Virus record (IMG/VR): IMGVR_UViG_3300042934_000565
Span: 1-64,000 of that record
DNA length: 64,000 bases
Source of the DNA: a virus
Direction: 5' to 3' (one strand)
This document shows, one piece after another, positions 1,656 to 64,000 of this stretch. Position 1 is the first letter of the stretch. Each line of letters opens with the position of its first letter. Below the pieces are notes generated by a model. That model did not search any database, was not told the origin of the DNA, and worked only from the letters and a program-made list of their open reading frames with translations. A program made the position numbers and the translations under genes.

Positions 1656-1661
1656 TCTTGG

Positions 1662-2910: not shown

Positions 2911-2962
2911 GGTGCCTTCTTCACGGGGGTTAGTGAGTCTGTGAGTGAGAACAAGTATTATT

Positions 2963-3125: not shown

Positions 3126-3154
3126 TTGCCCCGATATTGCAGGTCTGATAGCAT
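3126..3154 (+). promoter_or_regulatory. Promoter of the 3161-6252 operon, leaderless type
   Basis: TTGCCC (3126-3131), 17 nt, TAGCAT (3149-3154), then exactly 6 nt to the ATG at 3161. No ribosome site precedes that ATG, so transcription probably starts at or next to the A of ATG. Confidence 0.6.
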
Positions 3155-3160
3155 ATACCT

Positions 3161-3661: not shown

Positions 3662-4238
3662 CTTCAAGCGAGAGACTGACGCAGCCTGGGTCGCGGGCAT
3701 CATGTCGGTCATGGGTGAGTTCAAGATTCCTCACCGAGGTAAGCCCCGCGTTCAACTGCTGCTCGGTAGCACGAAGCACCCTGAGCCCATCGAGATGGTG
3801 GCCGCCTACTTCAAGACGCCTCTGGTGCTGATGTCAGGTCGACTCACACTGCGCCTCTCGGGTGAACAGTTGGACAAAGCCCTCGACAGGGTCTGGCCGT
3901 ACCTCTCAGAGGCTCGCAAGGCTGAGTACAATGGCCTAGTAGCCATCCAGCAGCAGCAGATGAATGCTTACGCGGCCGACAAGAAGCAGAAGCAACTCGA
4001 CCAGAAGTTCTGGGAGGGTCGCTCCACACCAAGCGATGAGGAACGCCGGGCTCGAGCAGAAGCCTCGTATCACAACCAAGACCCTGCAGTCGAGGTCATC
4101 GAGGATGAGCTTGAGCCGACTGAGGCAGAGGTCGAACTCGCTAAGGTCAGGCGCCAGCTTGAAGAGCAACGTCAGCGGGCAGAAATGCCATGGATCGATT
4201 ACACGCCCACCACCAAACGAGGGAAGAAAAATGCCTAA
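3636..4238 (+). CDS. LAGLIDADG-like protein with helical tail, 200 aa
   Basis: The start at 3636 is chosen because GGAGG (3622-3626) lies 9 nt upstream; the ATG at 3627 abuts that site. The N-terminal 100 residues resemble a single LAGLIDADG unit: WVAGIMSVMGEF at the position of the dodecapeptide, a beta sheet, then PYLSEARKAEY like the P-x-L-x2-K-R region. The usual acidic catalytic residue appears as Glu or is lost, so it may bind DNA without cutting. The last 100 residues are charged and likely coiled-coil. A second such protein lies at 19082. Confidence 0.6.
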   Translation: MMTSSTSTNFKRETDAAWVAGIMSVMGEFKIPHRGKPRVQLLLGSTKHPEPIEMVAAYFKTPLVLMSGRLTLRLSGEQLDKALDRVWPYLSEARKAEYNGLVAIQQQQMNAYAADKKQKQLDQKFWEGRSTPSDEERRARAEASYHNQDPAVEVIEDELEPTEAEVELAKVRRQLEEQRQRAEMPWIDYTPTTKRGKKNA

Positions 4239-4563
4239 CCAGAACAGCGGAGCAAGTCGCATTTACAACGAGCGAGCACGGCAGTCTGTCGAGGAGGGCT
4301 ACCTGCCCGGGGGTGATGTTGGCCGATCCCAGGAGCTCATGAGAGCAGCCATCGGCTATATCGGTCATGCTGGGGCACAGGAGGAATTCGGAGTCATTCT
4401 CACCGTGGAGGAAATGGGTACTGCCTGGCCCTGGCCTCCTGAGAGTTTCAAGCCTGAAGATCCAGTACGCACGCTGGAGAAGGCCGGGGCCCTGATCGCG
4501 GCAGCCATCGATGCACTCGAGGCCGAGCGGGAACTGAAGGCTGGTGAAACAGTTGCCGAGTAA
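4231..4563 (+). CDS. Phage protein of the R-x-R/WPW family, 110 aa
   Basis: Begins at the ATG at 4231 after GAGGGAAG, overlapping the preceding gene by 8 nt. The layout (RIYNERARQSVEEGYLPGGD, a helix ending AAIGYIGHAG, a WPWPPESFKPEDP loop, then EKAGALIAAAIDALE) matches a widespread small phage protein family of unknown function. That family is usually found among early genes of tailed phages. The match is from memory of the pattern only. Confidence 0.7.
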   Translation: MPNQNSGASRIYNERARQSVEEGYLPGGDVGRSQELMRAAIGYIGHAGAQEEFGVILTVEEMGTAWPWPPESFKPEDPVRTLEKAGALIAAAIDALEAERELKAGETVAE

Positions 4564-4714
4564 GCTGATCGTCGAGTACCGTAAGCACGATGGCGACCTC
4601 GAGTGGATCAGGTCCTTTCAGGACTGGACCCAGGATGACGTCGACCGACTCAACAAGATCATCGGCTACAACAAGTATCGGACAAGGATGTCTACAACAT
4701 GGCAAAATTCCTGA
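4544..4714 (+). CDS. Hypothetical small protein, 56 aa
   Basis: A GTG start with GAAGG 4 nt upstream, overlapping the previous stop by 20 nt. The product is charged and helical, with the segment DLEWIRSFQDWTQDDVDRLN, which resembles a helix-turn-helix or a small hinge protein. Not recognised. Codon use fits its neighbours and it fills the space between two certain genes. Confidence 0.6.
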   Translation: MKQLPSKLIVEYRKHDGDLEWIRSFQDWTQDDVDRLNKIIGYNKYRTRMSTTWQNS

Positions 4715-4791
4715 TGTACTCGACTATCATCTTCGTGGTAGTCCTTTACCTCTCAGCCTTAACCTTCAGCATTTTCATCCCCGTCAATTAA
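4699..4791 (+). CDS. Single-pass membrane microprotein, 30 aa
   Basis: ATG at 4699 with AAGG 11 nt upstream, overlapping the previous gene. Nearly the whole product is one hydrophobic helix with a short Met-Ala-Lys cap and FIPVN at the end. Its stop overlaps the ribosome site of the next gene (TAAGGAGAATC). It may be a membrane-acting early phage protein; function unknown. Confidence 0.5.
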   Translation: MAKFLMYSTIIFVVVLYLSALTFSIFIPVN

Positions 4792-4799
4792 GGAGAATC

Positions 4800-5129
4800 A
4801 TGCCCGACAAGTTACACGGCCAGACCGTACCGCCGAAGTCTTTCACGGTGGTGTGGGACGGAGACAAGCCCAAGGTCAAGGCGAGTCACTGGGAGGTAGG
4901 CTACACGCCCGCTTACCAGGCCACTGAGGACCTGGCCATCGCCCATGCCATGCAGACCAAGATGGTTGAGATCAACAAGGTCCGCAACGAGTGGATCGCC
5001 CTCAACCTGCTGGCCGCAGAATACGTGGCCGATACCATCGAGCGAGCAGGCGAGATGCAGATGGCCGAGATGGGGCTCACACCCGACACCGAACTGCCCG
5101 ACACCCACGACGACCACCAGGACGACTGA
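4800..5129 (+). CDS. Hypothetical protein, 109 aa
   Basis: Strong AAGGAG ribosome site 5 nt before the ATG. There is an N-terminal beta part (FTVVWDGDKPKVKASHWE), a long helix (residues 45-85) and an acidic His/Asp tail. The stop and the next ATG share one base. Not recognised; conserved gene order within the operon suggests an accessory early function. Confidence 0.75.
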   Translation: MPDKLHGQTVPPKSFTVVWDGDKPKVKASHWEVGYTPAYQATEDLAIAHAMQTKMVEINKVRNEWIALNLLAAEYVADTIERAGEMQMAEMGLTPDTELPDTHDDHQDD

Positions 5130-5521
5130 TGACTGACTACACGTTTGCGAACCGACTCGTCGATATCGCTACTCGGATCAAGCTCGCCGAAAACTTCGAC
5201 ATCGTGGTCGCCAGAGATCTCAAGATTCCCGATGGTCGCTGGTACTTCCAGATCAAGTGCTGGCGCAAGGATGTAATCACCAAGGAGATGGGCTGGGGTT
5301 ACGGCGGCAAGGCATATCTCTCTGAGGAGGCCAGTGACTCCGAACTGGTCGGCACGATCTTCGGCCTCTACAAGAACTACGTTGAGCACGAGGCCCGAGA
5401 GTCCTTCGAGTTCGATGGCTACCGCATCTATGGTCCGCACATGGATGTGAACGCACTCAAGACCGTCGCTCGCAAGGTGGACGTCCGTTCTGCTCAGCAC
5501 GTGGAAGACATGGCCCACTGA
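5129..5521 (+). CDS. Hypothetical protein, 130 aa
   Basis: Coupled to its neighbours at both ends by one-base stop/start overlaps. A mixed alpha-beta sequence with aromatic strands (GRWYFQIKCWRKD) and a helical end. No motif recognised. Lies within the rightward operon 3161-6252. Confidence 0.75.
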   Translation: MTDYTFANRLVDIATRIKLAENFDIVVARDLKIPDGRWYFQIKCWRKDVITKEMGWGYGGKAYLSEEASDSELVGTIFGLYKNYVEHEARESFEFDGYRIYGPHMDVNALKTVARKVDVRSAQHVEDMAH

Positions 5522-5685
5522 TGGGTAAGTGCTTCGTATGCGGTAAGAACCATGACAATGAGCCCTGGCGTGAAGCACTGGGAGCACTCAGACTCACACT
5601 CACAGGCGACCCCGACAAGGTCGATGTCCCTCGTGCGCAGTCCGAGGTGGAAACACTGACAAGGATCCTCAATGAAGAACATTAG
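5521..5685 (+). CDS. Small CxxC protein, 54 aa
   Basis: Starts at the ATG that overlaps the preceding stop by one base. The N-terminus has CFVCGKNHDNEPW, a half zinc-knuckle with possible ligands Cys, Cys, His. The rest is a helix. It overlaps the next gene by 14 nt. Probably a zinc-binding accessory protein; not identified. Confidence 0.6.
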   Translation: MGKCFVCGKNHDNEPWREALGALRLTLTGDPDKVDVPRAQSEVETLTRILNEEH

Positions 5686-6034
5686 GTTCGTGCCCCTGGA
5701 TGATGAGGGTAACCCAGTCCTCGAGCTCAGCCAGCCACTATCAACCGCTGAGTTCAGCTTCGAGCTGGAGGAAGACACCCACGATCAAGTCGACCTAAGC
5801 ACCCTGACTCAGACCACTGAGTGGACTACCGCACTGACAGTCGATCAGGAAACCTTCGATCTACTGGCCGGGGTATTCCCCCCTCAGCCACGATGGATTC
5901 TCGAGAACGGAGAACACAAGCTCGAGATATGGAACCTGCGTGAGGGTGAACGAGGCCCTGATGGCAGAATCCCTTACCACTTCGATGGTCGCTTCCTCTG
6001 CGGCCCTCACGATGAGGAAGGTAACCACCTGTAA
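5672..6034 (+). CDS. Hypothetical acidic protein, 120 aa
   Basis: Acidic beta-rich protein starting MKNIRFVPLDDEGN, with repeated strand-turn patterns. Not recognised. Overlaps the previous gene by 14 nt and shares a base with the next start. The ribosome site AAGGA precedes the ATG by a few nt. Confidence 0.7.
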   Translation: MKNIRFVPLDDEGNPVLELSQPLSTAEFSFELEEDTHDQVDLSTLTQTTEWTTALTVDQETFDLLAGVFPPQPRWILENGEHKLEIWNLREGERGPDGRIPYHFDGRFLCGPHDEEGNHL

Positions 6035-6252
6035 TGCCTCGAGCTATCCGGCCATATAGCACTGAGTATCCTCATGGTACTCGCCCCCGCTATGTGGCCG
6101 GTTGCTCGTGTATCCCTTGCTGCGACGCTAACGCCGAGTACATGCGTGAGTATCGAGCAGTGCGTAAGATGCTTGGTCGCCCTGCCCCTGGGGGGTCGCA
6201 ATATCACGCATCGCGCACGATCGAAAGCATATCCCCCAGCCCCTCAGAGTAG
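6034..6252 (+). CDS. Small basic zinc-type protein, 72 aa
   Basis: Last gene of the rightward operon. The core HGTRPRYVAGCSCIPCCDAN is a known actinophage/actinobacterial pattern (HGT...GC-x-C-x2-C), followed by a basic Tyr-Arg helix. Zinc binding by the clustered cysteines and the His is inferred. It may bind nucleic acid. A strong bidirectional terminator follows directly. Confidence 0.7.
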   Translation: MPRAIRPYSTEYPHGTRPRYVAGCSCIPCCDANAEYMREYRAVRKMLGRPAPGGSQYHASRTIESISPSPSE

Positions 6253-6261
6253 ACACTAATC

Positions 6262-6312
6262 GCCCCTGATATCATCGACCGGTCATTGATCAGTCTGATA
6301 TCAGGGGCTTTT
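6262..6312. terminator. Bidirectional rho-independent terminator
   Basis: GCCCCTGATATCA (6262-6274) pairs perfectly with 6296-6308 and is followed by TTTT. It separates the rightward operon 3161-6252 from the convergent leftward genes ending at 6323. The loop holds two further small palindromes. Confidence 0.85.
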
Positions 6313-6322
6313 AGGCGAGCTT

Positions 6323-6445
6323 CTAGGTGACTCGAATGTCAAGCTCTCCGCGATAGACCGCGGCTACGATGTCCTGCAGTGTTTCTTCGCGGATACGATC
6401 GTCGTGCTCACGCAGCCACTTGCTCTCGAGGATGCGGTCAGCCAT
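6323..6445 (-). CDS. Hypothetical small protein, 40 aa
   Basis: ATG at 6445 with GAGGGG 5 nt upstream. A highly charged helical product (MADRILESKWLREHDD) ending just before the terminator at 6262-6312. Last gene of the leftward operon that begins at 9962. Not recognised. Confidence 0.55.
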   Translation of the reverse strand: MADRILESKWLREHDDRIREETLQDIVAAVYRGELDIRVT

Positions 6446-6458
6446 GCCGGCCCCTCGC

Positions 6459-6710
6459 TTAAAGGGCCTCCGCGTCAGTAGGCTTATCAGCTGCTTTCGT
6501 TCTAGCGGCAGAAAGCTCGAGGAACGCGACGTAGAATCGTCCGAGCCTCGCATCCAAATGGAACGGGTCAAAGTCTGTTCCAGTGATGGCATCATACATC
6601 TCCTTGTCTGACTTAGAGAGCACATTCATCAGAGCCTGCCCGTACCGAAGTGAGGGGTCCTGAGTCTTGGCTCGAGCTGCCTTGTCGATGAGTTCGAAGA
6701 GGGTTAACAA
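6459..6710 (-). CDS. Hypothetical helical protein, 83 aa
   Basis: The start is TTG at 6710 (reads MLTLFELIDKAARAK), supported by GGAAGG 6 nt upstream and by the upstream stop at 6711-6713. All-helical, with the segment SLRYGQALMNVLS resembling small phage proteins next to replication genes. Function unknown. Confidence 0.65.
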   Translation of the reverse strand: MLTLFELIDKAARAKTQDPSLRYGQALMNVLSKSDKEMYDAITGTDFDPFHLDARLGRFYVAFLELSAARTKAADKPTDAEAL

Positions 6711-6794
6711 CTAGCGCCTTCCGCCCAGACCTGAGATGATGAGCATGATCAGAATGAACATAGTATACATCCACTCGTACCACTCCAGAATCAC
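6711..6794 (-). CDS. Single-pass membrane microprotein, 27 aa
   Basis: The GTG start overlaps the upstream stop in a GTGA arrangement and is preceded by GGGAGG. The product is one hydrophobic helix (MFILIMLIISGLG) with a WYEW cap and a GGRR end. It could act on the membrane or on host proteins; unknown. The coupling and ribosome site are the main support. Confidence 0.5.
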   Translation of the reverse strand: MILEWYEWMYTMFILIMLIISGLGGRR

Positions 6795-6949
6795 TCCGCC
6801 TCCCAGGTCTTGTTCTTGATGTTCGTAATGCGCCGACCATAGGCTTCGCTGTTGCGCACGAACTCAGCGACATCCTGGATGCCTCGCTTGTCGATATAGA
6901 CATACTGACCCCGCTGATCGATGTAGCCGATCGTGAACGTGTCATCCAT
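6791..6949 (-). CDS. Hypothetical small protein, 52 aa
   Basis: ATG at 6949 overlaps the stop of the 6949-7557 gene (TAATG). A mixed strand/helix product starting MDDTFTIGYIDQRGQYVY. Not recognised. Codon use and coupling at both ends support it as real. Confidence 0.6.
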   Translation of the reverse strand: MDDTFTIGYIDQRGQYVYIDKRGIQDVAEFVRNSEAYGRRITNIKNKTWEAE

Positions 6950-7557
6950 TAGCTGTCCTTCCGCTTCTTGAGCTTGAGTTCCCGAGGCGTTGCCCGAGGC
7001 GGAACTTCCTCTTCGATGGGCCGACCCCGTACGCCTACCTGGCCCTCGTCCTCGAGCGGTCGAAGCAGCTCGTAGAACGGTGACCCAGAAGCGAAGCCGC
7101 GCTCGAGATATCCCTCGACCTCGAGCTCCTTGAGCACCTTGTCGATGGCCAGCAGCGAAAGTCCCACACCATCGGGCTCGGGTGCTGCGAGGCGGTGGGG
7201 ATACACCCGGTTAGGCGAATCGATGAGCGGCTTGCCCTGTCGGTCCACCCCATTCAGACCCGTCGTGCCCTGTGTGGAGGGCCCTGCGGTGACATGCTGA
7301 CGGATCCAGTTCTCGATCTTTGGTCGGTTCACCGGCTTACGACCGCGCACCCCGCCGTTGCCCCCAGGCGTCGACTTCGTGCCACCCGCTCCTGCTCGGT
7401 GCTCCTTGACCGTAACACTCTTGATGAGTGAGTCCGACCGAGTGAGTGCCTGCTGGATCGTGAGCTGAAGGTACCGAACCATCTGCTCAGTGCTACGGTC
7501 CGTGCCATCGCTCTTCTTGCCCTCTTCGATGTCGAGAACAATACTGTACTTAGCCAC
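6949..7557 (-). CDS. Hypothetical protein with C-terminal winged-helix-like part, 202 aa
   Basis: GTG start after a strong AAGGAG site 8 nt upstream. Residues 1-55 form a helical unit after IVLDIEEGKK. A Gly/Arg-rich linker follows (residues 55-75). Residues about 75-175 resemble a winged helix (IENWIRQHV, then LLAIDKVLKELEVEGYLERG) of the kind used to sense chain ends or DNA. It lies directly downstream of the PrimPol-helicase gene, so a replication accessory role is plausible. Confidence 0.7.
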   Translation of the reverse strand: MAKYSIVLDIEEGKKSDGTDRSTEQMVRYLQLTIQQALTRSDSLIKSVTVKEHRAGAGGTKSTPGGNGGVRGRKPVNRPKIENWIRQHVTAGPSTQGTTGLNGVDRQGKPLIDSPNRVYPHRLAAPEPDGVGLSLLAIDKVLKELEVEGYLERGFASGSPFYELLRPLEDEGQVGVRGRPIEEEVPPRATPRELKLKKRKDS

Positions 7558-7638
7558 TAGCGATTCTCCTTTCTTCGATTATCGCTATCGAATTGATTCA
7601 ATATAAATATATCAAAGGCATTCGCATTTAGCAATTCT

Positions 7639-9693
7639 TTATTTATCTACAACCAAGAACCACCTATTGCTACCGTCACTCAGTTGCTCGCGTTCCACGA
7701 GCTCATTGTCGAGATGACGGGCAAGCTGCTTGTGTACGGCCGAGCGAGTGATGCCTCGAGCCTCTGCGATGGCCTGGGTAGTCATCGGTCCCATCTCGAG
7801 AATCTCGAGCAGCTTATCCTTGGCTGACTTCTCGCGACGAGGCTTCCATCCCCCGCCAGTTTCCTTGGTAGTTTCCTCGGGCTTGTCTTCAGACCAGGGG
7901 CTGATCATAGGTGACCACTCGAGGTTACGCACGTTCTCCATGCGATAGGCATTACCCGGGATCGTCTTCGACTCTGTATCGAGCTTCAGGTGTTCGCCCC
8001 CAGTGTGACTGATGTAGATGCTATCTTCAGCCCATGCATGGTTTGCCACTGCCCCGAGCATGCGCTGGCCCGGGCGTGACTTCTCACCCTTGCTCATGTG
8101 GTGGATGACGATGACCGCGCAGTTATGCTTACGCGATAGAACCTTCAGCGGCCTGAAGATCTTGTTCGTCATCTCCTGAGACTTGTTCTCCTCGACATCG
8201 CCGGCGGTCATCATCAGCGTGTCAATGATCAGCAGTTTGTAGGGTCTACCTGATAGCCCGTCAGAGAGCGTTTCGTCGAGCCACAACTGCCAGGCCTCGT
8301 CACTGATCGTGAACGACTTCTGGATGTAGGCCATGACGTCTGGGTCGAATGACTGTTCCTGATCTGGCGGCAGCCACCATACCCCAGCCCCGGACTCATC
8401 CTTGACTAGCTCGAACTTGTCGGTGGCTTTGTTGACCCAGATCTTTGCCGACCTGTTCTTGAGTGTTGCCGGCGGATCTTCTTCCTGGATATATAGGACA
8501 GGCCCGGGATCAACAACCCGAAAATGACCGAGGAAATCAGCACCGGTAGCAACAGAAAAGGCCAGGTCGAGACCGAGCCAAGACTTGTAGGACTTAGGTT
8601 CACCAGCAATGAAACCACAAGCACCCTCCGTTAGAATTCCTTGGACGAGATACCGAGGCTTCTGAATGTTGCGGAGTAGGGCGCCCATTCGCTCCGGAGC
8701 TGGCCGGTCGACTGGTTCTTCTTCACCGCCCGTGCCCTCCAGCTTCTCGATCGTCTCGTCTGACCTCTTCGCAATAGCCTTGCTTGCTTCTGCAATGAGT
8801 CGCCGAAGTTCATCATGGCGGGTGTTGAACTTATTCCAAACAGTTTCCCGTACGATTGCGACGATCTCAGAGACGCTACATCCGACATCAGCAAGGCATC
8901 GGATGAGATACCAAAGCTTGTCAGACTTGTCCCCAGATGCTTCCTTGGCATTGAGCAACTCCCTTGCCGTGTGATTCAACTTGAGTCGAACTCGAGCGAT
9001 GACTGCGAGCCTGTCCACACCATCGATCTCGGTGCCCAGCGCCTCGGTCAGTTGGGTGGTACCGTGATTGACTTCAGGCAGCTCAGCGAAGTCGTTCAGC
9101 TCATACCGCGGTCCATCCACCCAGAGCATCTTGCCCTTTGGTGACTTGCCCCTGTCTTCATACTCGAGCTTGTGATTGTCCCACCCCGGTATGCGAAGCA
9201 GCTGTGTCGTGTCCCAGCCCGAGTGATCCGCGTTGACATGATAGGTCAGACGCTGGTTCTCATTGCCAGGCCACGAAGCACCACCGAAAGAACCCGAGCC
9301 CCGCTGTGCAAGCCAGAGTGCCTGATAGTGACCGGGGCTTGACTCCCAGGCGATCGTCGGCGGGTAATCATCGATGGTGTGGGGGTCTGCTTCATCGAGG
9401 TCAGCCCAGAGGGCGTACTCATCCATGGCAAAGCCCTCTTGCCGGACGGGGTACTCGAAGAGGTTGGGACACCAGTACAGATCGTGCTGGGTATGCGCGA
9501 GCATGTGATCAATGATCTGCTCACGTTCCTTCGGCCAAAGGAATGGGGGACCGTCGCTGTAACCCTTGCGCCTTTCGCCGGTACGTCGCTGAACCTCACG
9601 GTCGATGTAGGGGAAGAAGGCATACCCGCTCTGCCTCCCCCATGCCTGAGATATGATTCGAAGAGTCTTCTCGGCTTCAGCCTTACTTACCAT
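7639..9693 (-). CDS. PrimPol-type primase fused to RecA-fold helicase and winged helix, 684 aa
   Basis: Residues about 60-210 carry archaeo-eukaryotic primase motifs: LWADLDEADP (D-x-D), SSPGHYQALWL, and the LLRIPGWDNHK segment typical of plasmid/phage RepB-like PrimPols. Residues about 335-560 are an AAA_25/RepA-like helicase: GEPKSYKSW as the P-loop, LLIIDTLMM as Walker B, and IVIHHMSKG as a sensor. The P-loop has Tyr where Gly is usual (G-x4-Y-K-S). The last 70 residues form a winged helix (AIAEARGITRSAVHKQL). It should lay primers and unwind DNA at the phage fork. Confidence 0.85.
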   Translation of the reverse strand: MVSKAEAEKTLRIISQAWGRQSGYAFFPYIDREVQRRTGERRKGYSDGPPFLWPKEREQIIDHMLAHTQHDLYWCPNLFEYPVRQEGFAMDEYALWADLDEADPHTIDDYPPTIAWESSPGHYQALWLAQRGSGSFGGASWPGNENQRLTYHVNADHSGWDTTQLLRIPGWDNHKLEYEDRGKSPKGKMLWVDGPRYELNDFAELPEVNHGTTQLTEALGTEIDGVDRLAVIARVRLKLNHTARELLNAKEASGDKSDKLWYLIRCLADVGCSVSEIVAIVRETVWNKFNTRHDELRRLIAEASKAIAKRSDETIEKLEGTGGEEEPVDRPAPERMGALLRNIQKPRYLVQGILTEGACGFIAGEPKSYKSWLGLDLAFSVATGADFLGHFRVVDPGPVLYIQEEDPPATLKNRSAKIWVNKATDKFELVKDESGAGVWWLPPDQEQSFDPDVMAYIQKSFTISDEAWQLWLDETLSDGLSGRPYKLLIIDTLMMTAGDVEENKSQEMTNKIFRPLKVLSRKHNCAVIVIHHMSKGEKSRPGQRMLGAVANHAWAEDSIYISHTGGEHLKLDTESKTIPGNAYRMENVRNLEWSPMISPWSEDKPEETTKETGGGWKPRREKSAKDKLLEILEMGPMTTQAIAEARGITRSAVHKQLARHLDNELVEREQLSDGSNRWFLVVDK

Positions 9694-9695
9694 AC

Positions 9696-9962
9696 TTACT
9701 CAAGACCCTCGATCTTGTAGTTACGCATGGTCTCCGCCAGCTCCTTTGCCAGCTTCAGCAGGGCGATGCCTTCGGGGCTACCGCGTTCCGGTCGATCGTT
9801 GTCCTCGATGTACTTCTTTTCGAGATGGGTGAGCACGAACTGCTGCATCCCTAGCTTGCCCTGCACCAGCCCAGCCTGAAAGATGGGGTAGGTGGGATCC
9901 TTCTTCATCCCGGCCGGAGCTTTCGCATATCCTCGAAGCTGTGAGTCCAACTGCTTACCCAT
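9696..9962 (-). CDS. Hypothetical protein, 88 aa
   Basis: Basic N-terminus (MGKQLDSQLRGYAKAPAG) and a helical remainder. AGGGA lies about 8 nt before the ATG. First gene of the leftward operon that includes the PrimPol-helicase. A promoter 70 nt upstream (10028-10056) and a possible 15-codon leader frame (9973-10020) precede it. Function unknown; replication accessory is a guess. Confidence 0.7.
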   Translation of the reverse strand: MGKQLDSQLRGYAKAPAGMKKDPTYPIFQAGLVQGKLGMQQFVLTHLEKKYIEDNDRPERGSPEGIALLKLAKELAETMRNYKIEGLE

Positions 9963-10027
9963 TTGGTAGTCCCTAGTGATGTGAGTGAGTACTTTGTATA
10001 TGAGCCCTGAGGTGGCTCATCCCTACG

Positions 10028-10056
10028 ATCATATCGTCGAAATCTCGGGGAGGCAA
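10028..10056 (-). promoter_or_regulatory. Promoter of the PrimPol operon with overlapping dyad
   Basis: Minus strand: TTGCCT (10056-10051), 17 nt, TATGAT (10033-10028). The -35 box lies inside the inverted repeat GAGGCA-AA-TGCCTC (10050-10063), so a repressor could block it. Confidence 0.65.
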
Positions 10057-10063
10057 ATGCCTC
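10050..10063. promoter_or_regulatory. 14-bp inverted repeat over the -35 box
   Basis: GAGGCA and TGCCTC separated by AA, flanked on both sides by ATCTCGG copies. It overlaps the -35 element of the PrimPol promoter and is 30 bp from the divergent promoter at 10090. Operator inferred. Confidence 0.45.
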
Positions 10064-10089
10064 AATCTCGGGTAAGGGCATACCGGAGT

Positions 10090-10118
10090 TTGATCCACTT
10101 ATTCTCATGCATTATGAT
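10090..10118 (+). promoter_or_regulatory. Promoter of the 10165-11114 genes
   Basis: TTGATC (10090-10095), 17-nt spacer, TATGAT (10113-10118). It fires rightward, away from the PrimPol promoter. Confidence 0.65.
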
Positions 10119-10164
10119 CGATATGCGCCCATCAATCGAGGGGCAATAACTAAAGGAGGTGCCA

Positions 10165-10743
10165 ATGGTAGAGTCAGGTCAGATCACAATTCGGGAGTTG
10201 CTCCGCGATCCCCAGTTCAAGGCCTACTTCATCAAGGTTCCCAAGCTGCCCGACCATTATACGCCAGAAGCAGAACCCTGGCGCCTTTTGGTGGTGAAGC
10301 AGGGTGAGCATAAGTGGCGATCGAAGCGGTTCGGCACATACCAGGAGGCTTTCGCCGGGTTCAAGAAGATGCTGCCAGTCATCAGCGACGCGGCAATCAA
10401 CTGCCCCGGCCTCAATTTTATGCCACCCACTCGCACCGTGAAGCTCAAGGGTCGCTTCGAAGTAGTCAAGGGCATTCAGAAGCCCGTTCTTCGCACCCTG
10501 GTATGGGCCCCCCGCCTTGAGGCTGATATGCCTCGGCATCATTGGTGCGGGTACTGCCGTCGGCCCACGGTATTCGTGAACAAGGGCATGCCCTCTCGGA
10601 TGCTGAATGGTTTCACCCTACCGGCAACGCGCGTTGCTTATCGCTGCAATGTATGCGGCTCGAGCGACGAAATCATGGATATTCGTAGTCCTGAGCTCAA
10701 TCAGCAGTGGGATGTGAAGCGCCCCAGGTTGTATCGTGCCTGA
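10165..10743 (+). CDS. Zinc-ribbon protein, 192 aa
   Basis: The ATG at 10165 is preceded by AGGAGG 5 nt upstream, which decides against the in-frame GTG at 10159. The N-terminal 120 residues are mixed alpha-beta and include a WRLLVVKQGEHKWRS strand pair. The C-terminus has two knuckles, CGYC (near residue 127) and CNVC (near 162), forming a likely zinc ribbon. This suggests a DNA- or RNA-binding protein. Family not recognised. It heads a short rightward operon. Confidence 0.7.
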   Translation: MVESGQITIRELLRDPQFKAYFIKVPKLPDHYTPEAEPWRLLVVKQGEHKWRSKRFGTYQEAFAGFKKMLPVISDAAINCPGLNFMPPTRTVKLKGRFEVVKGIQKPVLRTLVWAPRLEADMPRHHWCGYCRRPTVFVNKGMPSRMLNGFTLPATRVAYRCNVCGSSDEIMDIRSPELNQQWDVKRPRLYRA

Positions 10744-11152: not shown

Positions 11153-11201
11153 AGTCATATCGCCCCGCGCGATGCCTGATAAATAAATGAGGAGAACAAG
11201 C

Positions 11202-11894
11202 ATGGGACTGAAGTACACTGAGGCAAGCCTCAAGAAGAAGTCGGTTGCCGATCTGAAGGAGCTGGCATCGGACCTCTTCGATGAGGACGAGCTCGACGAG
11301 ATCACGACGAAGCAGCCGCTCATCGACAAGCTGGTCGAAGTCGAGGACGACGAAGAAGTCGAGGAAGACGACGAGGTCGAGGAATCGGACGACGAGGAAG
11401 AGGTCGAAGAGGACGACGCCGACCCCGAGCTGCCCGATGAGGAGGAGGAGGACGAGGTCGACGAGCCCGCCCCCGCCAAGTCGAAGGCCGCAGCCAAGAA
11501 GCAGACGAAGTACACCGAAAGCGGCAAGGCCGACAACGGCGAAAAGCTGCTCGGGGCTAAGGAGGTCGCAACGGCCATCGGGACCGACGCCAAGTCGCTT
11601 CGTCAGTTCTTCCGCTCGGGCAAGTCGAGCTTCACCGCAGTGGGTGCCGGCGGCCGCTACGAGTTCAAGGAATCCGACGTCGAGAAGATCAAGTCGGAGT
11701 TCGAGACCTGGAAGGCCGGCAAGCCGGGCCGGGGTCGAGGCACCAGCGAGGGTGGCAGCACCCGGAGCCGCAGCACCACTCGGGGCCGCGAGGTGAAGCC
11801 CGAGGATCAGATCGAGGAAGTCGAAGAGATCGAAGAACTCGAGGACCTCGAAGAGCTGGACGAGGCCGACCTCGAGCTCGAAGAAGAGGACTGA
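11202..11894 (+). CDS. Acidic SAP/Rho_N-like plus winged-helix protein, paralogue 2 (230 aa)
   Basis: The start is the ATG at 11202; GAGGAGAAC precedes it with normal spacing, while the ATG at 11187 overlaps that site. Residues 10-48 (SVADLKELASDLFDEDELDE) look like a Rho_N/SAP-type helical unit. A long Glu/Asp stretch follows (50-95), then a short basic Lys/Ala linker. Residues about 115-170 are the winged helix shared with 1431, 28476 and 60955 (KEVATAIGTDAKSLRQFFR, then GAGGRYEF). A basic Arg/Gly linker and a second acidic tail follow. Likely a DNA-organising or transcription factor; inferred. Confidence 0.8.
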   Translation: MGLKYTEASLKKKSVADLKELASDLFDEDELDEITTKQPLIDKLVEVEDDEEVEEDDEVEESDDEEEVEEDDADPELPDEEEEDEVDEPAPAKSKAAAKKQTKYTESGKADNGEKLLGAKEVATAIGTDAKSLRQFFRSGKSSFTAVGAGGRYEFKESDVEKIKSEFETWKAGKPGRGRGTSEGGSTRSRSTTRGREVKPEDQIEEVEEIEELEDLEELDEADLELEEED

Positions 11895-12296
11895 AGGACT
11901 GGGCCCCTTGCGAGGATCAGCGCTAGGGGATAGGGTTATACCTGAACGACAGCACCGCTAACTAAGACGCTGCGCCCCTCCTCACAACTTAACATTGGTT
12001 CGACTAGGCGAACAGAAACAGATCTTAGGCCTAGTGCGGGTGGTCCCTTTAAGCTGGGGGCAACGGGGATAAGCGATCAAAGCCTGGAAGCGCCCCGCCA
12101 CCGTGATAGACTCATCGCAGCTCCTCATACCCTGGAGAGTCCCTGAGGTCGGTGGGTTGACTAACTCTAACCATGGTGATATCATCTAACTTAACATCGA
12201 ACTGCCCCAAAGAGTGACCCGGGGTAGAGGTCCTGGTACAAAGGGTTCGGTTACGGACGACGGTTCGTATTCCATTAATGTACACGAGGGCCGCCC
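11895..12296. other. Non-coding leader of the tRNA locus
   Basis: About 400 nt with no convincing rightward gene. It starts with a hairpin (11904-11929, CCCCT-x-GCG pairing with CGC-x-AGGGG). It also holds two AACTTAACAT copies near 11987 and 12187. Further tRNA-like pieces could not be folded by eye. A weak minus-strand open frame crosses 12112-12285. Confidence 0.4.
12112..12285 (-). CDS. Doubtful small protein, 57 aa
   Basis: A GTG-started frame whose translation looks protein-like in its C-terminal half (FDVKLDDITMVRVSQPTDL). There is no good ribosome site, and it lies antisense within the RNA locus. It may be a gene remnant or chance. Reported only because the stretch otherwise lacks explanation. 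Confidence 0.2.
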   Translation of the reverse strand: MYINGIRTVVRNRTLCTRTSTPGHSLGQFDVKLDDITMVRVSQPTDLRDSPGYEELR

Positions 12297-12369
12297 ACCC
12301 CATTAGCCCAAAGGCAGAGGCAGTGGACTTAAAATCCACTCAGTATCAGTTCGAATCTGATATGGGGTA
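12297..12369 (+). tRNA. tRNA with anticodon UAA (Leu, UUA codon), short variable loop
   Basis: All four arms fold: acceptor ACCCCAT/ATGGGGT, D stem GCC/GGC, anticodon stem GTGGA/TCCAC around CTTAAAA, T arm ATCAG-TTCGAAT-CTGAT, discriminator A. CCA is not encoded. The anticodon is UAA. Unusually, the variable loop is only 5 nt, while bacterial t-RNA Leu has a long variable arm. The charging amino acid is therefore uncertain although the codon read is UUA, a rare codon in GC-rich actinobacteria. Confidence 0.85.
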
Positions 12370-12578
12370 CGGCTAGTGATCTGGTACACGGCTTGCTTAC
12401 AGAAACAAAGGCCAGCGAGGTTGTAAGGCTCCTCGGAAGTTAAACGCCCGGGAAAACGGCTTTTAGGGTAAGATTACGGGGCCGGGGTAAGGGTTTGGTT
12501 AGCCCCTAACAACTCAATAGGGTTGCAGGACAGGAAGCCCAGGATTTGCCATGGTGTATCCGAGTCTGAGAAACCCAT
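12370..12578. other. Spacer between the two tRNAs
   Basis: About 210 nt without an open frame of note. It contains several GC-rich short hairpins (for example GGGGC/GCCCC near 12479-12508 and TTAG-CCC-CTAA near 12500). No complete cloverleaf found. It is probably part of the tRNA precursor or decayed tRNA genes. Confidence 0.4.
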
Positions 12579-12651
12579 TCCCAGTTAGCTTAGTTGGCAG
12601 AGCATCGGACTGTTAATCCGAGGGTCGGTGGTTCGAGCCCACCACTGGGAG
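12579..12651 (+). tRNA. tRNA-Asn (GUU)
   Basis: Complete cloverleaf: acceptor TCCCAGT/ACTGGGA, D arm with AGC...GC and GG in the loop, anticodon stem TCGGA/TCCGA around CTGTTAA, T arm GGTGG-TTCGAGC-CCACC, discriminator G as usual for Asn. CCA is only partly present after the discriminator (CA). Confidence 0.95.
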
Positions 12652-12707
12652 CAATAGGTTGTCGGTGACCAATGTAACCCAATGAGGAACCGTCAACAAC
12701 TCAACAT

Positions 12708-59675: not shown

Positions 59676-60112
59676 TTCTCTCCCTCGATAGACGTAGGAT
59701 GTGCTGCTTGAGCCTTGCTCTCACTGACCCTGTCAGCCTCCTCGCTGGTAGACTCAGGCTCTGTGAGCACCTCTACCGGCCGGTATGGGGTCGAGCCATC
59801 CGGCGCCCAGTGATCCGGCCAGTGTACCTCCATGATCCGACCAGGGCCCACCTTGAAGCCCTCAGTGTCCAGCTCCGGCGCTCTTACTACCAGAGGCCGA
59901 GAGTTGGGGTGCGGCAGTGGGTATCCGCGCGCTTGCCAGGTCTCAGTAAGCCTTCTCCGACTTACTCGCTTGCCACCATCTCTATACAAGTCCGAGATAT
60001 GCCCAGAGTGATCGATGTAGTGCTCGTTGAGTCCGATCACGGTCTCGAGCGAATAGTACCGGGCGACTTCCCAGTAAACCGGCACCGTCAGGGGTGTGGG
60101 CAGCGGGTTCAC
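59672..60112 (-). CDS. Hypothetical protein, 146 aa
   Basis: Beta-alpha sequence (VYWEVARYYSLETVIGL) and a basic middle (GKRVSRRRLTETWQARGY), ending in an acidic Ser/Glu linker. Unknown. Confidence 0.65.
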   Translation of the reverse strand: MNPLPTPLTVPVYWEVARYYSLETVIGLNEHYIDHSGHISDLYRDGGKRVSRRRLTETWQARGYPLPHPNSRPLVVRAPELDTEGFKVGPGRIMEVHWPDHWAPDGSTPYRPVEVLTEPESTSEEADRVSESKAQAAHPTSIEGEK

Positions 60113-60453
60113 TCGGCGATCACCTCTGAGAGATGCACCAGGTGTCCAAAGGCGCCGATCTTCACGTACAGCACGTTGTCATCGGTGGGCAGACCATTGA
60201 GGCCGCTTCGAAGCCCGTAGATCAGGCAGGCGGGATTGCCCTCGGCGAACATCCATGACCCTCCGGTCAAGGAATCCCAGTAGTCTTCGACCTCGGCCTC
60301 GTGCTCCTGAGGGTATCCTTGGGTGTCGACCTGGAAGTGGCCTTTGCCGGCGAACTTCACCTTGATCTTCTCGTAGCGGCCGAAGATCGGGCGGCCCTTG
60401 GCGTCCAGGTTCTGGATGGGGGCGGGGTTCTGGGTGGGGTTCTGGTCAGGCAT
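60109..60453 (-). CDS. Hypothetical protein, 114 aa
   Basis: Low-complexity Asn/Pro start (MPDQNPTQNPAPIQN), then strands (RPIFGRYEKIKVKFAGKG) and DYWDSLTGGSWMFAEG. Overlaps the upstream gene by 8 nt. Unknown. Confidence 0.65.
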   Translation of the reverse strand: MPDQNPTQNPAPIQNLDAKGRPIFGRYEKIKVKFAGKGHFQVDTQGYPQEHEAEVEDYWDSLTGGSWMFAEGNPACLIYGLRSGLNGLPTDDNVLYVKIGAFGHLVHLSEVIAE

Positions 60454-60649
60454 TGATAATCCTTTGTGCGGTGGCGATTGAGAGGGGGATTTTGAGTTCG
60501 ACGGTCAGGAGCGGGGCTTCTGGGCCTGACTGCTCAAGCGACCAATCGGTGAGTGCCGAGTGAGTGGCGAGGTAATGATCGACGCTCAGACCCATAGCTC
60601 TCAGAATCTCAGCGGTTCGTTCGGGGCTGTCAGGTTTCAGGATTGCCAT
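60446..60649 (-). CDS. Hypothetical small protein, 67 aa
   Basis: ATG at 60649 chosen because a promoter ends 6 nt upstream; the more upstream ATG at 60679 lies inside that promoter. Helix (SPERTAEILRAMGLS) and strands. First gene of the operon 60649-58888. Confidence 0.65.
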   Translation of the reverse strand: MAILKPDSPERTAEILRAMGLSVDHYLATHSALTDWSLEQSGPEAPLLTVELKIPLSIATAQRIINA

Positions 60650-60655
60650 GCCTCT

Positions 60656-60684
60656 ATCATATCGACTCGGTTTGCTCATCGCAA
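60656..60684 (-). promoter_or_regulatory. Leaderless-type promoter
   Basis: TTGCGA (60684-60679), 17 nt, TATGAT (60661-60656), then AGAGGC and ATG. Confidence 0.65.
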
Positions 60685-60867
60685 TGTCGGGGATACCTCG
60701 ACGACCTTATTGACGATGAAGGAGCATACGTGGGTAGACGTTTTTCAGGAGAGAGCACAGTCAGCACGAAGTACGGTCTCGAAGGCCCCTTCGAATATTT
60801 GAATTGAATTTTAGGGGAGGGGTTCGAACATATATTCGTTATCAAACCGTTATCAAATATATGTCTT

Positions 60868-60894
60868 GATTGTCCCGATTGTCCCCATTGTCCG
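60868..60894 (+). repeat. Three tandem 9-bp repeats before winged-helix gene 4
   Basis: GATTGTCCC, GATTGTCCC and CATTGTCCG in a row. Two GTTATCAAA copies lie just upstream (about 60838-60856). The repeats cover the -35 region of the putative promoter, as expected for an autoregulatory operator. Confidence 0.6.
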
Positions 60895-60899
60895 ATAGA
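60870..60899 (+). promoter_or_regulatory. Putative promoter of winged-helix gene 4
   Basis: TTGTCC (60870-60875), 18 nt, GATAGA (60894-60899). The match is modest; the 5' leader to the ATG is about 50 nt. Confidence 0.4.
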
Positions 60900-60954
60900 C
60901 TAAAAGCGTTCGATCAACCGATTGAACGAAATCGAAAATCAAGGGGATGAAACA

Positions 60955-61188
60955 ATGGCCGCATCGAATGCAAACGCAAAGAACCTTTCGATTCAGGAAG
61001 TCGCTGATCGAATCGAAGTCCCTGCGAAGACAATTCGAAAGGTTCTTCGCGCCAATTCCGAAAAGGAAAATCAGCCGGGACGTGGGGGCCGATGGATTGT
61101 CGCTGAAAGCGATATCGAAAAGCTCCGCGCGCTGATCAATTCGCACACGGCGAAAAGCGCAACGGTCGCACAATTCAGCGATGACTGA
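60955..61188 (+). CDS. Small winged-helix DNA-binding protein, paralogue 4 (77 aa)
   Basis: ATG at 60955 with AAGGGGAT upstream; an earlier in-frame start lacks a site. The core SIQEVADRIEVPAKTIRKVL then GRGGRWIV and SDIEKLRALI matches the 1431 product almost motif for motif. It is transcribed rightward and stands alone before the palindrome-rich region and after tandem 9-mers. Possible autoregulator; it may bind the nearby palindromes. Not shown. Confidence 0.8.
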   Translation: MAASNANAKNLSIQEVADRIEVPAKTIRKVLRANSEKENQPGRGGRWIVAESDIEKLRALINSHTAKSATVAQFSDD

Positions 61189-61200
61189 ATGACCGAATAG

Positions 61201-61238
61201 GATATCCCGCCCATTGAATTGGGCGGGATATTCTTTTA
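61201..61238 (+). terminator. Rho-independent terminator of winged-helix gene 4
   Basis: A 12-bp perfect stem (ATATCCCGCCCA and its complement) with a 6-nt loop and a T-rich end (TTCTTTT), 13 nt after the stop codon. Confidence 0.9.
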
Positions 61239-61246
61239 TCATTTTT

Positions 61247-61264
61247 TATATTCATATGAATATA
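61247..61264. repeat. 18-bp perfect palindrome
   Basis: TATATTCATATGAATATA. It lies right after the terminator. A CCCGCGCGGG palindrome follows 4 nt later. Binding site for a dimeric protein is likely. Confidence 0.6.
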
Positions 61265-61444
61265 GTCCCGCGCGGGGAGTATATGGCGTATACGGGGAAA
61301 GTGCGGAATGCGCGGAATTCGGAGAGAATGCGGAGAATACGGGGAAGCGCTTTCCGCGACCCAATCATGGGAAAGCGGTTTCCTAGAGAGGGGGGACGCC
61401 CCGCATGCTTGCTATTGCCCCTGCTATCAAACCCCCTCAGATCG

Positions 61445-61492
61445 CCCCCTATGCCCGGGGGAGTGCATGCGCGTTTCGGGGCAACCCCCCGA
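61445..61492. repeat. Two back-to-back GC hairpins
   Basis: CCCCC/GGGGG (61445-61461) and TCGGGG/CCCCGA (61476-61492). They could fold in single-stranded DNA or RNA. Confidence 0.45.
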
Positions 61493-61510
61493 CGGATATA
61501 TATTCACTGG

Positions 61511-61567
61511 GGAAGAAGTGTTCGAAAGTGGACTCTCGGAAAGCGCTTTCCATTCGAACATTCTTCC
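61511..61567. repeat. Inverted repeat flanking the perfect 14-bp palindrome
   Basis: GGAAGAAGTGTTCGAA (61511-61526) and TTCGAACATTCTTCC (61553-61567) are complementary except for one extra G. The perfect palindrome lies between them, so the whole can form a nested cruciform. Confidence 0.65.
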
Positions 61568-61612
61568 GAAGAGGGGAGAGCGCCGGAAAGCGCTTGCCGG
61601 AACACAGAGAAC

Positions 61613-61646
61613 GGAATAATTTTCACTCCGCAAAGTCCGCTGGAAC
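61613..61646 (-). repeat. 34-nt conserved motif, copy A
   Basis: AATAATTT-N19-GGAAC with CAAA in the middle, the same spacing as the other copies. It lies 15 bp from the last 14-bp palindrome. Confidence 0.65.
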
Positions 61647-61954
61647 TAGGGCGGTCCGCCGCTGCCCAGCCGATCTCCGACTCCGCGAATTCCTTTTGCG
61701 ATGCGCGATCGATGCATGATCAGAGAATGCTCCAGGGAGTCATAGAATCATGTCCCTGATTCCCCAATGATCGAGCATGCATCATCGATCGATTCGATAT
61801 GTCAGGCGATTAGGGATCGATCTGCGATCTTATTCCTCAGCTTCCAGCCAGTCCGTTCCGTCCACACCTGCATTCTGCGAGCGCTGTCTCTCGATTCCGT
61901 GGGCAGACACAAAGAAACCCCGAGTTTCCTCGAGGCTCCTTGTGGGTCCTTCAG

Positions 61955-62218
61955 TTACCCGTACATCTCGTCATACTCCATCTGCCGTTCCAGCATGTAC
62001 GCGAAATCCGGATCGTGCATTGCTCTGTAGACGTCCTGCTTGATCTTCTCATCGGACCCGTACTTCTGTCCGTTGCAGTCTCCTCTTTCGTGACCGCAGC
62101 ATGGGAAGTCTTCGCAAACCCCACCTTGCTGTTGGATCTGGCACGAGTGATTCTGCATCAGTGCCATGTCGTCTGTGCAGCTGAACCCACATTCCGAACA
62201 AGTCATCTCGATAGCCAT
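61955..62218 (-). CDS. Zinc-finger protein, 87 aa
   Basis: N-terminal MTCSECGFSCTDDMALMQNH is a C-x2-C finger with a His in helix position, then CEDFPCCGHERGDCNG adds four cysteines. The C-terminal half is acidic and helical. It may be a DNA-binding or redox-sensing protein; zinc proteins of this type are common among actinophage early genes. Confidence 0.7.
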   Translation of the reverse strand: MAIEMTCSECGFSCTDDMALMQNHSCQIQQQGGVCEDFPCCGHERGDCNGQKYGSDEKIKQDVYRAMHDPDFAYMLERQMEYDEMYG

Positions 62219-62232
62219 GTCCCGGTCCTCCC

Positions 62233-62580
62233 TTACTTCTTCACTTCACCGCAGCGCTTGCAGATTCCCATGCGGTCCTCGTGGCCCCAAATCTTGCAGG
62301 CTCCGACGTGACCTTCCTTGATCGTCCGATCCGTCCAGTGAGCGTCATCCGGCTGAGCCAGTGGGAACGAATCCTTGTAGCTCCGAAGGATGGAGTCATC
62401 CAAGACCTTCCCCGTGTCGAGGTTCTCGATGACGTAGCGTTCCCGATTCCCCGTCTTCTTGAACTCGTACTCCATGTCCCTCTGTGCCAACTCCAGAGTG
62501 GCGAAGTGTGCGTAGTAGTCCTTGTTGCGGCAGGATACCTGGAAGGGCTTGTGGGTGGGAGTGTGGGTGTTGTTGGTCAT
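62233..62580 (-). CDS. Hypothetical protein with C-terminal zinc knuckle, 115 aa
   Basis: Thr/His-rich N-terminus, alpha-beta core (KDYYAHFATLELAQRDMEYE) and CKIWGHEDRMGICKRCGEVK at the end, a probable zinc site. A promoter lies 49 nt upstream. Not recognised. Confidence 0.7.
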   Translation of the reverse strand: MTNNTHTPTHKPFQVSCRNKDYYAHFATLELAQRDMEYEFKKTGNRERYVIENLDTGKVLDDSILRSYKDSFPLAQPDDAHWTDRTIKEGHVGACKIWGHEDRMGICKRCGEVKK

Positions 62581-62628
62581 TTCTTCATCTCCTTCGGTGT
62601 TTCGAAGTTCAGATTTGATCTTCGATCA

Positions 62629-62656
62629 ATCATACCATCGTAGAACCAAAGGTCAA
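62629..62656 (-). promoter_or_regulatory. Promoter of the 62580 gene
   Basis: TTGACC (62656-62651), 16 nt, TATGAT (62634-62629). The leader of about 48 nt holds a weak GAAGGAGATG ribosome site. Confidence 0.65.
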
Positions 62657-62708
62657 GGCTTCCCGTTGACATTGTTATAAACCGTGATCTCCCTATTCCC
62701 CGTTTTCT

Positions 62709-62780
62709 GTCGAGAACCTATTCCCAGCCGTCCCGTCTCTCCCGTCTCTCCCGTCTACGGAGAATGGCGGAGTTCTCGAC
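62709..62780. repeat. Inverted repeat enclosing tandem 9-mers
   Basis: GTCGAGAAC (62709-62717) and GTTCTCGAC (62772-62780) flank three 9-mers, TCCCGTCTC, TCCCGTCTC and TCCCGTCTA (62731-62757). Resembles an iteron-type origin or multi-site operator. Confidence 0.5.
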
Positions 62781-62803
62781 GGAACCAAGAGAAACTCTGG
62801 AAC

Positions 62804-62837
62804 GGAATAATTTGAACTCTCCCAAACACACTGGAAC
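62804..62837 (-). repeat. 34-nt conserved motif, copy B
   Basis: AATAATTT-N19-GGAAC with CAAA in the middle. A further GGAAC lies 3 nt upstream of the motif and again about 20 nt before that. Confidence 0.65.
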
Positions 62838-62878
62838 TCGAGTACGCGTGGCGTGCGTACCCGAGCCAGCCTGTGCGT

Positions 62879-63316
62879 CTATTGCTGCGAGCGCTGTGCT
62901 TCCATGTTCTTCATGACCTCGTTGTAGAAGTCCCACTGGTGGCGGTAGGCCCTGGCGAGGAGGTCAACGAGTCGGTCATCCTCGAGATAGTCGGTGAGCT
63001 CCTGTTCGAGCTTGGTGAGCCCAGTTCGGGGATCGATGATGTTGTTGATCTGGTCATCGGTCAGTTCGTCAGCTCGGTCCGTGAGCAGGATCAGGGCTTC
63101 GGCGTTAGCCACCACATCGTCCTGTGAGTCGCCGATCAGATCTTCAGCGAGGTGAGTCCAAAAGATGTCATCGGTGGGTCCATAGTAGTCAGCCTCGGTG
63201 AAGGCTTCAACGGTGTCTCGGAAGGCATTGGGAAAGTTGGATGCACTGGCGATCTCAGATGAGATGAACCAGGTGGCGTAGGTCTCGAAGGTGAGTGAGA
63301 TGCGGGTGATGGACAT
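62879..63316 (-). CDS. Hypothetical acidic helical protein, 145 aa
   Basis: Acidic, all-helical (ETYATWFISSEIASASN, then HLAEDLIGDSQDDVVAN). It resembles the next upstream product in composition and both look like early inhibitors or antirestriction-type acidic proteins, which is only a guess. Spaced 2 nt from the upstream gene. Confidence 0.7.
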   Translation of the reverse strand: MSITRISLTFETYATWFISSEIASASNFPNAFRDTVEAFTEADYYGPTDDIFWTHLAEDLIGDSQDDVVANAEALILLTDRADELTDDQINNIIDPRTGLTKLEQELTDYLEDDRLVDLLARAYRHQWDFYNEVMKNMEAQRSQQ

Positions 63317-63318
63317 GG

Positions 63319-63687
63319 TCAGTTCTCCTCGATACGTCGTGCGAAGTTGTCCGTCAGACGACGGAGGGTCTTCCGAGCGGCCAGGCGCTGGTGGATGCGT
63401 TCCTTGAAGTAATCCCCGGAGCTGTCGTTGGCGTCGTCCTGGAGGTTTGTGATGAGTTCGACCAGGTCCTCCTCGGCAGGGTCCATGTCGGTCAGCGCGA
63501 GTGCGGCCGGCATGTTCATCATCAGCAGGGTGTAGAGATAGAAGATGCTCATGTCATCTTCGGTCGGATCGTACTCCATGGCAACTTCGATGTAGTCCAT
63601 GGCGTCATCGGTCAGAGCGTCGGCCAGGTCACGTTCGTGTCCCATGAAGCTGTCGGCAGGGGCGTTGTCGAGATCGTAGTTAGTCAT
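63319..63687 (-). CDS. Hypothetical acidic helical protein, 122 aa
   Basis: Asp/Glu-rich N-terminal two thirds (ALTDDAMDYIEVAMEYDPTE), hydrophobic middle helix and a basic C-terminus (RLAARKTLRRLTDNFARR). Acidic early proteins can mimic DNA, but no motif proves it. AGGACTGACCAATG includes the ribosome site. Confidence 0.7.
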   Translation of the reverse strand: MTNYDLDNAPADSFMGHERDLADALTDDAMDYIEVAMEYDPTEDDMSIFYLYTLLMMNMPAALALTDMDPAEEDLVELITNLQDDANDSSGDYFKERIHQRLAARKTLRRLTDNFARRIEEN

Positions 63688-63719
63688 TGGTCAGTCCTCC
63701 TTGTTGTGTGGGTGAGTGT

Positions 63720-64000
63720 TCAGGTGTCGTGTCCGGGAAAGTACTGGCGGATGACGCGGCATTCCTCGGGATCGTCATCGAAGCATGAGGCGTAATCGTC
63801 GTGGTGTACCGGGCAGACCGAGTTTTCGAGGCAGAGTGTCGAAATCAAGTCGCGAGAGTAAGGGTCGGCGCAGAGGACTTTGTAGGCGTGGGTCAGATGG
63901 CCGGCGATGAGATCGACTCGTTTGTGAATTTCGGGTTGGTCGATGTATTCCTCGAGATAGTAGGTGGTGTCGAGCGGCTCGGTCTCGTCTTCGTCGCGGC
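63720..64000 (-). CDS. Hypothetical protein, 5' end outside the window
   Basis: Open reading frame that enters from the right edge and ends at 63720-63722. The visible 93 residues include an acidic stretch, GHLTHAYKVLCADPYS, and several Cys/His (VCPVHHDDYASCF), so zinc binding is possible. The start lies beyond base 64000. Confidence 0.65.
   Translation of the reverse strand, partial: RDEDETEPLDTTYYLEEYIDQPEIHKRVDLIAGHLTHAYKVLCADPYSRDLISTLCLENSVCPVHHDDYASCFDDDPEECRVIRQYFPGHDT

Follow-up and report, generated by a model that had tools for sequence, protein, structure and literature searches.

In the record of Escherichia phage T5, a region annotated as an injection stop signal (iss) is located at 9140-10149, inside the 1-10219 terminal repeat. 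As described in PMC13250531, the iss contains repeats, inverted repeats, palindromes, and DnaA boxes, and the mechanism of the second-step DNA transfer is poorly understood. In phages of Actinobacteria, short dyads have been reported as 17-bp elements in more than 30 copies across the genomes of Cluster O mycobacteriophages (PMC4351075) and as 18-bp inverted repeats located 14-22 bp upstream of start codons in Microbacterium Cluster EG phages (PMC7302621).

Here, an array of palindromes and dyads at 61247-61646 was analysed in a stretch of 64,000 bases (hereafter the window), out of the 65,027 bases of virus record IMGVR_UViG_3300042934_000565. Like the Cluster O elements as PMC4351075 presents them, the array consists of repeated short dyads with no assigned role in an actinobacteriophage, but four of them are packed into 257 bp instead of more than 30 being spread genome-wide. 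Allowing up to two mismatches, the dyad GGAAAGCGCTTTCC occurs six times in the window (0.18 expected, with a largest value of two in any shuffle), and four of these matches lie inside the array, which is not the dispersed pattern of Cluster O. The Cluster EG repeats are likewise repeated and intergenic (PMC7302621); however, the array is found downstream of a gene and in a direct terminal repeat (DTR). A literature search returned no match for the exact GGAAAGCGCTTTCC string or for Curtobacterium phage Shrew, and the available portions of PMC7302621, PMC4351075, and PMC13250531 contain no description of the tract.

The terminal repeat and its winged-helix gene

The named phages with DNA similarity to the window are Microbacterium phages Triscuit and Huwbert and Curtobacterium phage Shrew, whose terminases are 71-74% identical to that of the window phage. 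In PMC7302621, Triscuit is a lytic siphovirus, a singleton, whose genome ends in a DTR of 3795 bp according to Table 1 and of 3,759 bp according to the text. Exact comparison of the record ends yields 3795 bp for Triscuit, in agreement with that table, and 4512 bp for Shrew. The DTR of the window phage is inferred by alignment to these relatives rather than seen directly in the contig. The right end of the window matches Triscuit genes 8 and 5, gene 4 is matched at both ends, and gene 1 at the left; the DTR genes thus leave the window at its right end and continue at its left, and the contig was therefore apparently cut within its own DTR. When projected onto Triscuit, the array falls within the DTR, roughly 470-870 bp from its inner end. 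Just outside that end, the motif GCTCTCT..CTACC(C)ACGT is present in Triscuit (3796-3842), Shrew (4513-4560), and, on the minus strand, the window (Table 1), and this conserved flank at the cut (about 60728-60776) is a candidate terminase recognition site.

The MerR-like product of the gene preceding the array is 52% identical to Triscuit gene 8 and 50% identical to Huwbert 9, and was assigned to family phrog_21603 (E 5e-22); its score against HTH_17 was 20.6 bits, under the cut-off of 27. The best fold matches of its structure model (pLDDT 78) include RacA, MerR-type regulators, BldC, pSK1 Par, and the Xis of phage Pukovnik. The likeness to RacA (Z 6.2, rmsd 3.4, 59 aligned) and the result of another fold search (E 0.076) are both below a reliable level, and such likenesses of the model may reflect merely a common arrangement. 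The model also matched the fold of lambda gpNu1 (Z 4.3), a likeness that was set aside. A second phrog_21603 member is encoded at 1431-1655, towards the other DTR end, and no relative of the winged-helix protein was confirmed in host genomes.

Table 1. Features of the array and its surroundings, in window coordinates.
Feature	Position	Strand	Basis or remark
Flank just outside inner DTR end, GCTCTCT..CTACCCACGT	60728..60775	-	Alignment with Triscuit and others, motif scan, exact Triscuit/Shrew DTR ends
Predicted inner DTR end (TACG/GTCT)	60776, cut 60775/60776	.	Alignment to exact DTR end of Triscuit
AC/GT-poor tract containing the whole array	60951..61950	.	11/1275 300-bp windows <0.5, all here
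MerR-like winged-helix protein, 77 aa, orthologue of Triscuit gene 8	60955..61188	+	Identity, profile, model
Intrinsic terminator of winged-helix gene	61199..61240	+	15-pair stem, T-rich tail
18-bp perfect palindrome TATATTCATATGAATATA	61247..61264	.	Palindrome search and shuffles
GTCCCGCGCGGGG	61265..61277	.	Identical in window, Triscuit, Huwbert, L004
Dyad GGGAAGCGCTTTCC, one change from GGAAAGCGCTTTCC	61342..61355	.	Motif search
Dyad GGAAAGCGGTTTCC, one change from GGAAAGCGCTTTCC	61370..61383	.	Motif search
Element TGAGGGGG-N-ATAGCTAGCAT, one copy	61405..61445	-	Common to distant relatives
Left arm of inverted repeat, GGAAGAAGTGTTCGAA	61511..61526	+	Arm alignment
Perfect dyad GGAAAGCGCTTTCC, 14 bp	61538..61551	.	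Motif search
Right arm of inverted repeat (pairs as reverse complement with GGAAGAAGTGTTCGAA)	61553..61567	-	Arm alignment
Dyad GGAAAGCGCTTGCC, one change from GGAAAGCGCTTTCC, 47 bp from perfect dyad	61585..61598	.	Motif search
Two-box element GGAATAATTT-N20-GAAYTNNN, copy a	61613..61650	+	Other copies 62804-62841, 1844-1881

Anatomy of the array

The original prediction of structured non-coding DNA directly downstream of the winged-helix gene was borne out in most of its parts: the perfect palindrome, the four GGAAAGCGCTTTCC dyads, and the GC hairpins (CCCGCGCGGG at 61267 and GGGGGGACGCCCC at 61390, besides more complementary G/C runs) were all recovered, and no supported gene or ORF covers 61247-61646. 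Among the perfect palindromes of the window, TATATTCATATGAATATA is the longest, palindromes of at least 18 bp being expected 0.37 times per shuffle, and it had no match in shuffled sequence even when three mismatches were allowed. The inverted repeat does enclose the perfect dyad, but it is not the plain 15-bp match first described, as a one-base gap is needed to bring 15 of 16 columns of the two arms into agreement.

With regard to density, five 14-bp near-palindromes (at most one mismatched pair) fall within 400 bp. This is the maximum of the window, tied only with 11.6-12.2 kb, where most of the near-palindromes lie within the coding part of the gene at 11187-11894. Compared with first-order Markov shuffles of the local non-coding stretch, five were observed versus 1.40 expected (P 0.025), and the 450 bp following the winged-helix gene likewise contain five (P 0.007, Markov shuffles); the excess over local shuffles is real but modest. 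As single-stranded DNA, the nested stretch folds better than its shuffles (z -3.1). An RNA reading of the array was rejected, the whole 400 bp folded as RNA giving z values of only -2.2 on the plus strand and -1.7 on the minus strand; a search of 60000-64000 against Rfam gave six matches, every one far under the gathering threshold. Elsewhere in the window, 11895-12680 is a long stretch with no evident gene except two tRNAs (Leu and Asn), and it also lies downstream of a winged-helix gene (11187-11894).

Operators of the LacI/GalR family are CG-centred 14-bp dyads, and the GGAAAGCGCTTTCC dyad resembles an operator of the LacI type. Mimicry of a host LacI operator was rejected: the LacI domain (PF00356) was not found in the window phage; the exact dyad is present in only four of 199 Microbacteriaceae genomes and is therefore not a host regulon; and a LacI-like start was seen at two of the 46 loci examined among the matches listed, in one case no more than 200 bp from the site.

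Conservation, turnover, and base-step bias

Window positions 60701-61960 were aligned with four close relatives (Triscuit, Huwbert, and contigs L004 and L022). The order of winged-helix gene, terminator, AT-rich dyad, GTCCCGCGCGGGG, GTTCGAAAGTG, and GGAATAATTT box is retained as a skeleton in all five genomes, including the window, with GTCCCGCGCGGGG altered in L022 and GTTCGAAAGTG replaced by ATTCGAAAGTG in L004. The AT-rich dyad downstream of the gene is TTGATAATGATTATCA or a near variant in the relatives (TTGATAATGGTTATCA in L022) and TATATTCATATGAATATA in the window, and TTGAGAATCATTCTCAA or variants of it are carried by the relatives upstream of the gene. From CCCGCGCGGG to the GGAATAATTT box, the interval measures 107, 117, 117, and 149 bp in the relatives (range 107-149) versus 348 bp in the window, and the extra DNA holds most of the array, including the GGAAAGCGCTTTCC dyads and the single TGAGGGGG-N-ATAGCTAGCAT copy. 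These dyads are private to the window phage, being absent at up to one mismatch from all 21 related records; in addition, no other viral contig was found with two exact GGAAAGCGCTTTCC dyads 5-35 bp apart. Conservation in relatives, on which the original prediction had been made to depend, thus extends to the place, the skeleton, and the base-step bias described below, but not to the GGAAAGCGCTTTCC dyads. Repeat lags above those of shuffles were detected at 47 bp in the window and 45 bp in L004.

Two further elements are shared more widely. TGAGGGGG-N~20-ATAGCTAGCAT is present in two to five copies per stretch examined in L078, L079, L080, L081, L082, L084, and Shrew (L023). No copy was detected in Triscuit, L004, or the examined part of G002; in the few places inspected, the element lay after a terminator and ahead of the next promoter. 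The two-box element GGAATAATTT-N20-GAATTACG, with its fixed spacing, occurs in three copies per DTR in five of five close genomes (window, Triscuit at 3158, 2690, and 29, Huwbert, L004, and G002), all on the strand of the winged-helix gene, while further matches at three to six mismatches are weak and look like chance. Huwbert gene 8 (OR521080.1, 2706-3293) is annotated over the tract, where the Triscuit annotation has no gene; it is probably not a real gene. A fixed-motif scan of the first 10 kb of contig G003, which has the closest terminase, and inspection of its bases 1-6000 revealed no such tract.

The tract is also marked by a scarcity of AC/GT steps. In a scan of 300-bp windows with a threshold of rho(AC/GT)<0.5, it is the sole region of the 64,000 bases below the threshold, and every one of the 12 genomes surveyed has such a region in the DNA covered (window, Triscuit, Huwbert, L004, G002, Shrew, G005, G006, G008, G009, G012, and G018), 10-15 kb of each of the six distant contigs being covered. 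The AC/GT-poor tract is situated within the DTR, at 62-195 bp from its mapped end, in Shrew, Triscuit, and the window; in G006, about 60 bp separate it from a sequence resembling the DTR-end flank. The flank motif itself accompanies the tract in only six of the 12 genomes (window, Triscuit, Huwbert, L004, Shrew, and G006). In Shrew, rho(AC/GT) falls to 0.00, and 49 of 50 low 300-bp windows are within the two DTR copies. Additional low-AC/GT regions occur elsewhere in Triscuit (four), Huwbert (three), and Shrew (one), and in the parts examined of G002 and G006 (one each). As controls, Musetta and Tandem, unrelated phages that also have a DTR, were scanned over their first 30 kb, and none of the 595 300-bp windows fell below 0.5 in either. 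Across annotated genes 7-10 of Shrew (2701-4450), the values are 0.29 for AC/GT, 0.15 for AG/CT, and 0.47 for GG/CC, as though DNA composition took precedence over protein sequence in this DTR tract.

A putative boundary tract and its comparison with the T5 iss

The locus is best, if tentatively, explained as a cis-acting, protein-binding control tract at the inner DTR boundary of a lytic-type siphovirus of Actinobacteria. The winged-helix protein and/or another phage DNA-binding protein would coat the dyads and repeats, and the coated structure would mark or hold the boundary between the terminal repeat, with its early genes, and the remaining genome. Such a boundary might act during DNA entry or early transcription, as has been proposed for the T5 iss, and the four private GGAAAGCGCTTTCC dyads could be the phage's own binding sites in the tract, some of them multiplied by local duplications of 45-47 bp.

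The operator array named in the original prediction is a plausible option. In its plain form, the winged-helix protein or another phage regulator would bind there and set early transcription with no role at the DTR boundary, an account that we consider somewhat unlikely. It agrees with the location of the palindrome and dyads 59-410 bp downstream of a regulator gene, with the 7-1-7 dyads that the relatives carry on both sides (upstream and downstream) of that gene, and with repeated dyads being common in actinobacteriophages, as reported in PMC4351075 and PMC7302621. However, a promoter search of both strands of 61247-61646 gave no sigma-70-like match, and where the genome ends are known, the bias and the position both go with the DTR edge. 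A site for packaging or for duplication of the terminal repeat, used when concatemers are cut, is unlikely in our judgement. The place suits that proposal of the original prediction, since the array belongs to the DTR and is a few hundred bp (at most about 900) away from the mapped cut, just outside which there is a conserved motif; nevertheless, the strongest non-coding conservation is at the cut and not at the array, the dyads are private, and the flank is the better candidate for a terminase site.

The lags of 45-47 bp, the fast sequence turnover, and the modest dyad excess would also be expected if the array were functionless, a by-product of tandem duplication acting locally on DNA under weak constraint, but the skeleton and the base-step bias are kept across genomes with little common DNA, and this explanation appears quite improbable. 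Even less credence is given to a replication origin with iteron-like dyads, another option of the original prediction, for which there is little support. Clustered dyads, two repeat lags of about 46 bp, and a strand-biased G-rich stretch in four of four close relatives (skew about 0.5) point in that direction; on the other hand, DnaA boxes are missing (one DnaA-like box at up to one mismatch in 60776-64000, with no cluster), GC skew is noisy with no clear switch, and the dyads belong to one phage.

Beyond a control tract at the DTR boundary, a bolder proposal, rather doubtful at present, is that DNA delivery by the Triscuit/Shrew group of actinobacteriophages is a two-step process, as in T5, the inner DTR tract being a putative injection stop signal recognised by its few AC/GT steps and by fast-changing dyads bound by the DTR-encoded MerR-like protein. 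If this were true, phages infecting Gram-positive bacteria and phages infecting Gram-negative bacteria would have evolved a similar device independently, and if an unrelated phage group has a boundary tract of like placement and make-up, the common properties could give a lead as to what stops the DNA. The cultured relatives Triscuit, Huwbert, and Shrew put the boundary question within experimental reach, and the tract may be usable as a marker of the DTR edge in uncultured contigs of the Triscuit/Shrew group.

Compared with the T5 iss, the tract is likewise a non-coding, repeat-rich region, about 1 kb long, within a long DTR with early genes and close to its inner end, the position being matched exactly in Triscuit and Shrew and by alignment in the window, where repeats, inverted repeats, and palindromes again lie in non-coding DNA. 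The iss also has the lowest AC/GT 300-bp windows of the first 14 kb of T5. Its bias is weaker (iss mean 0.71): across 1-54000 and 80001-121750, four of the six T5 windows below 0.5 are at 9451-10350, at least one of them extending past the DTR end, and the right-hand DTR copy has none at the matching place on its grid, so the T5 signal is weak. Dyads are not enriched in the T5 iss (2 versus 1.4) or in the Triscuit tract (1 versus 2.2). At up to one mismatch, TGAGAATCATT has four copies in the T5 iss, three in the Triscuit DTR, two in L004, and none in the window DTR. The T5 repeats are at about 9590-9700, and similar dyads flank the Triscuit winged-helix gene at about 3310 and 3720; both are reminiscent of Fur-type 7-1-7 boxes, and the likeness between them may be chance. 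In contrast to the iss, DnaA boxes at up to one mismatch number zero in the Triscuit and Shrew DTRs, apart from the single box of the window, and DNA of 60900-62900 matches two phage records, neither of them T5. Because DnaA boxes are missing and DNA similarity is lacking, the tract is not a member of the T5 iss, yet it is placed like the iss and has its general anatomy in common with it.
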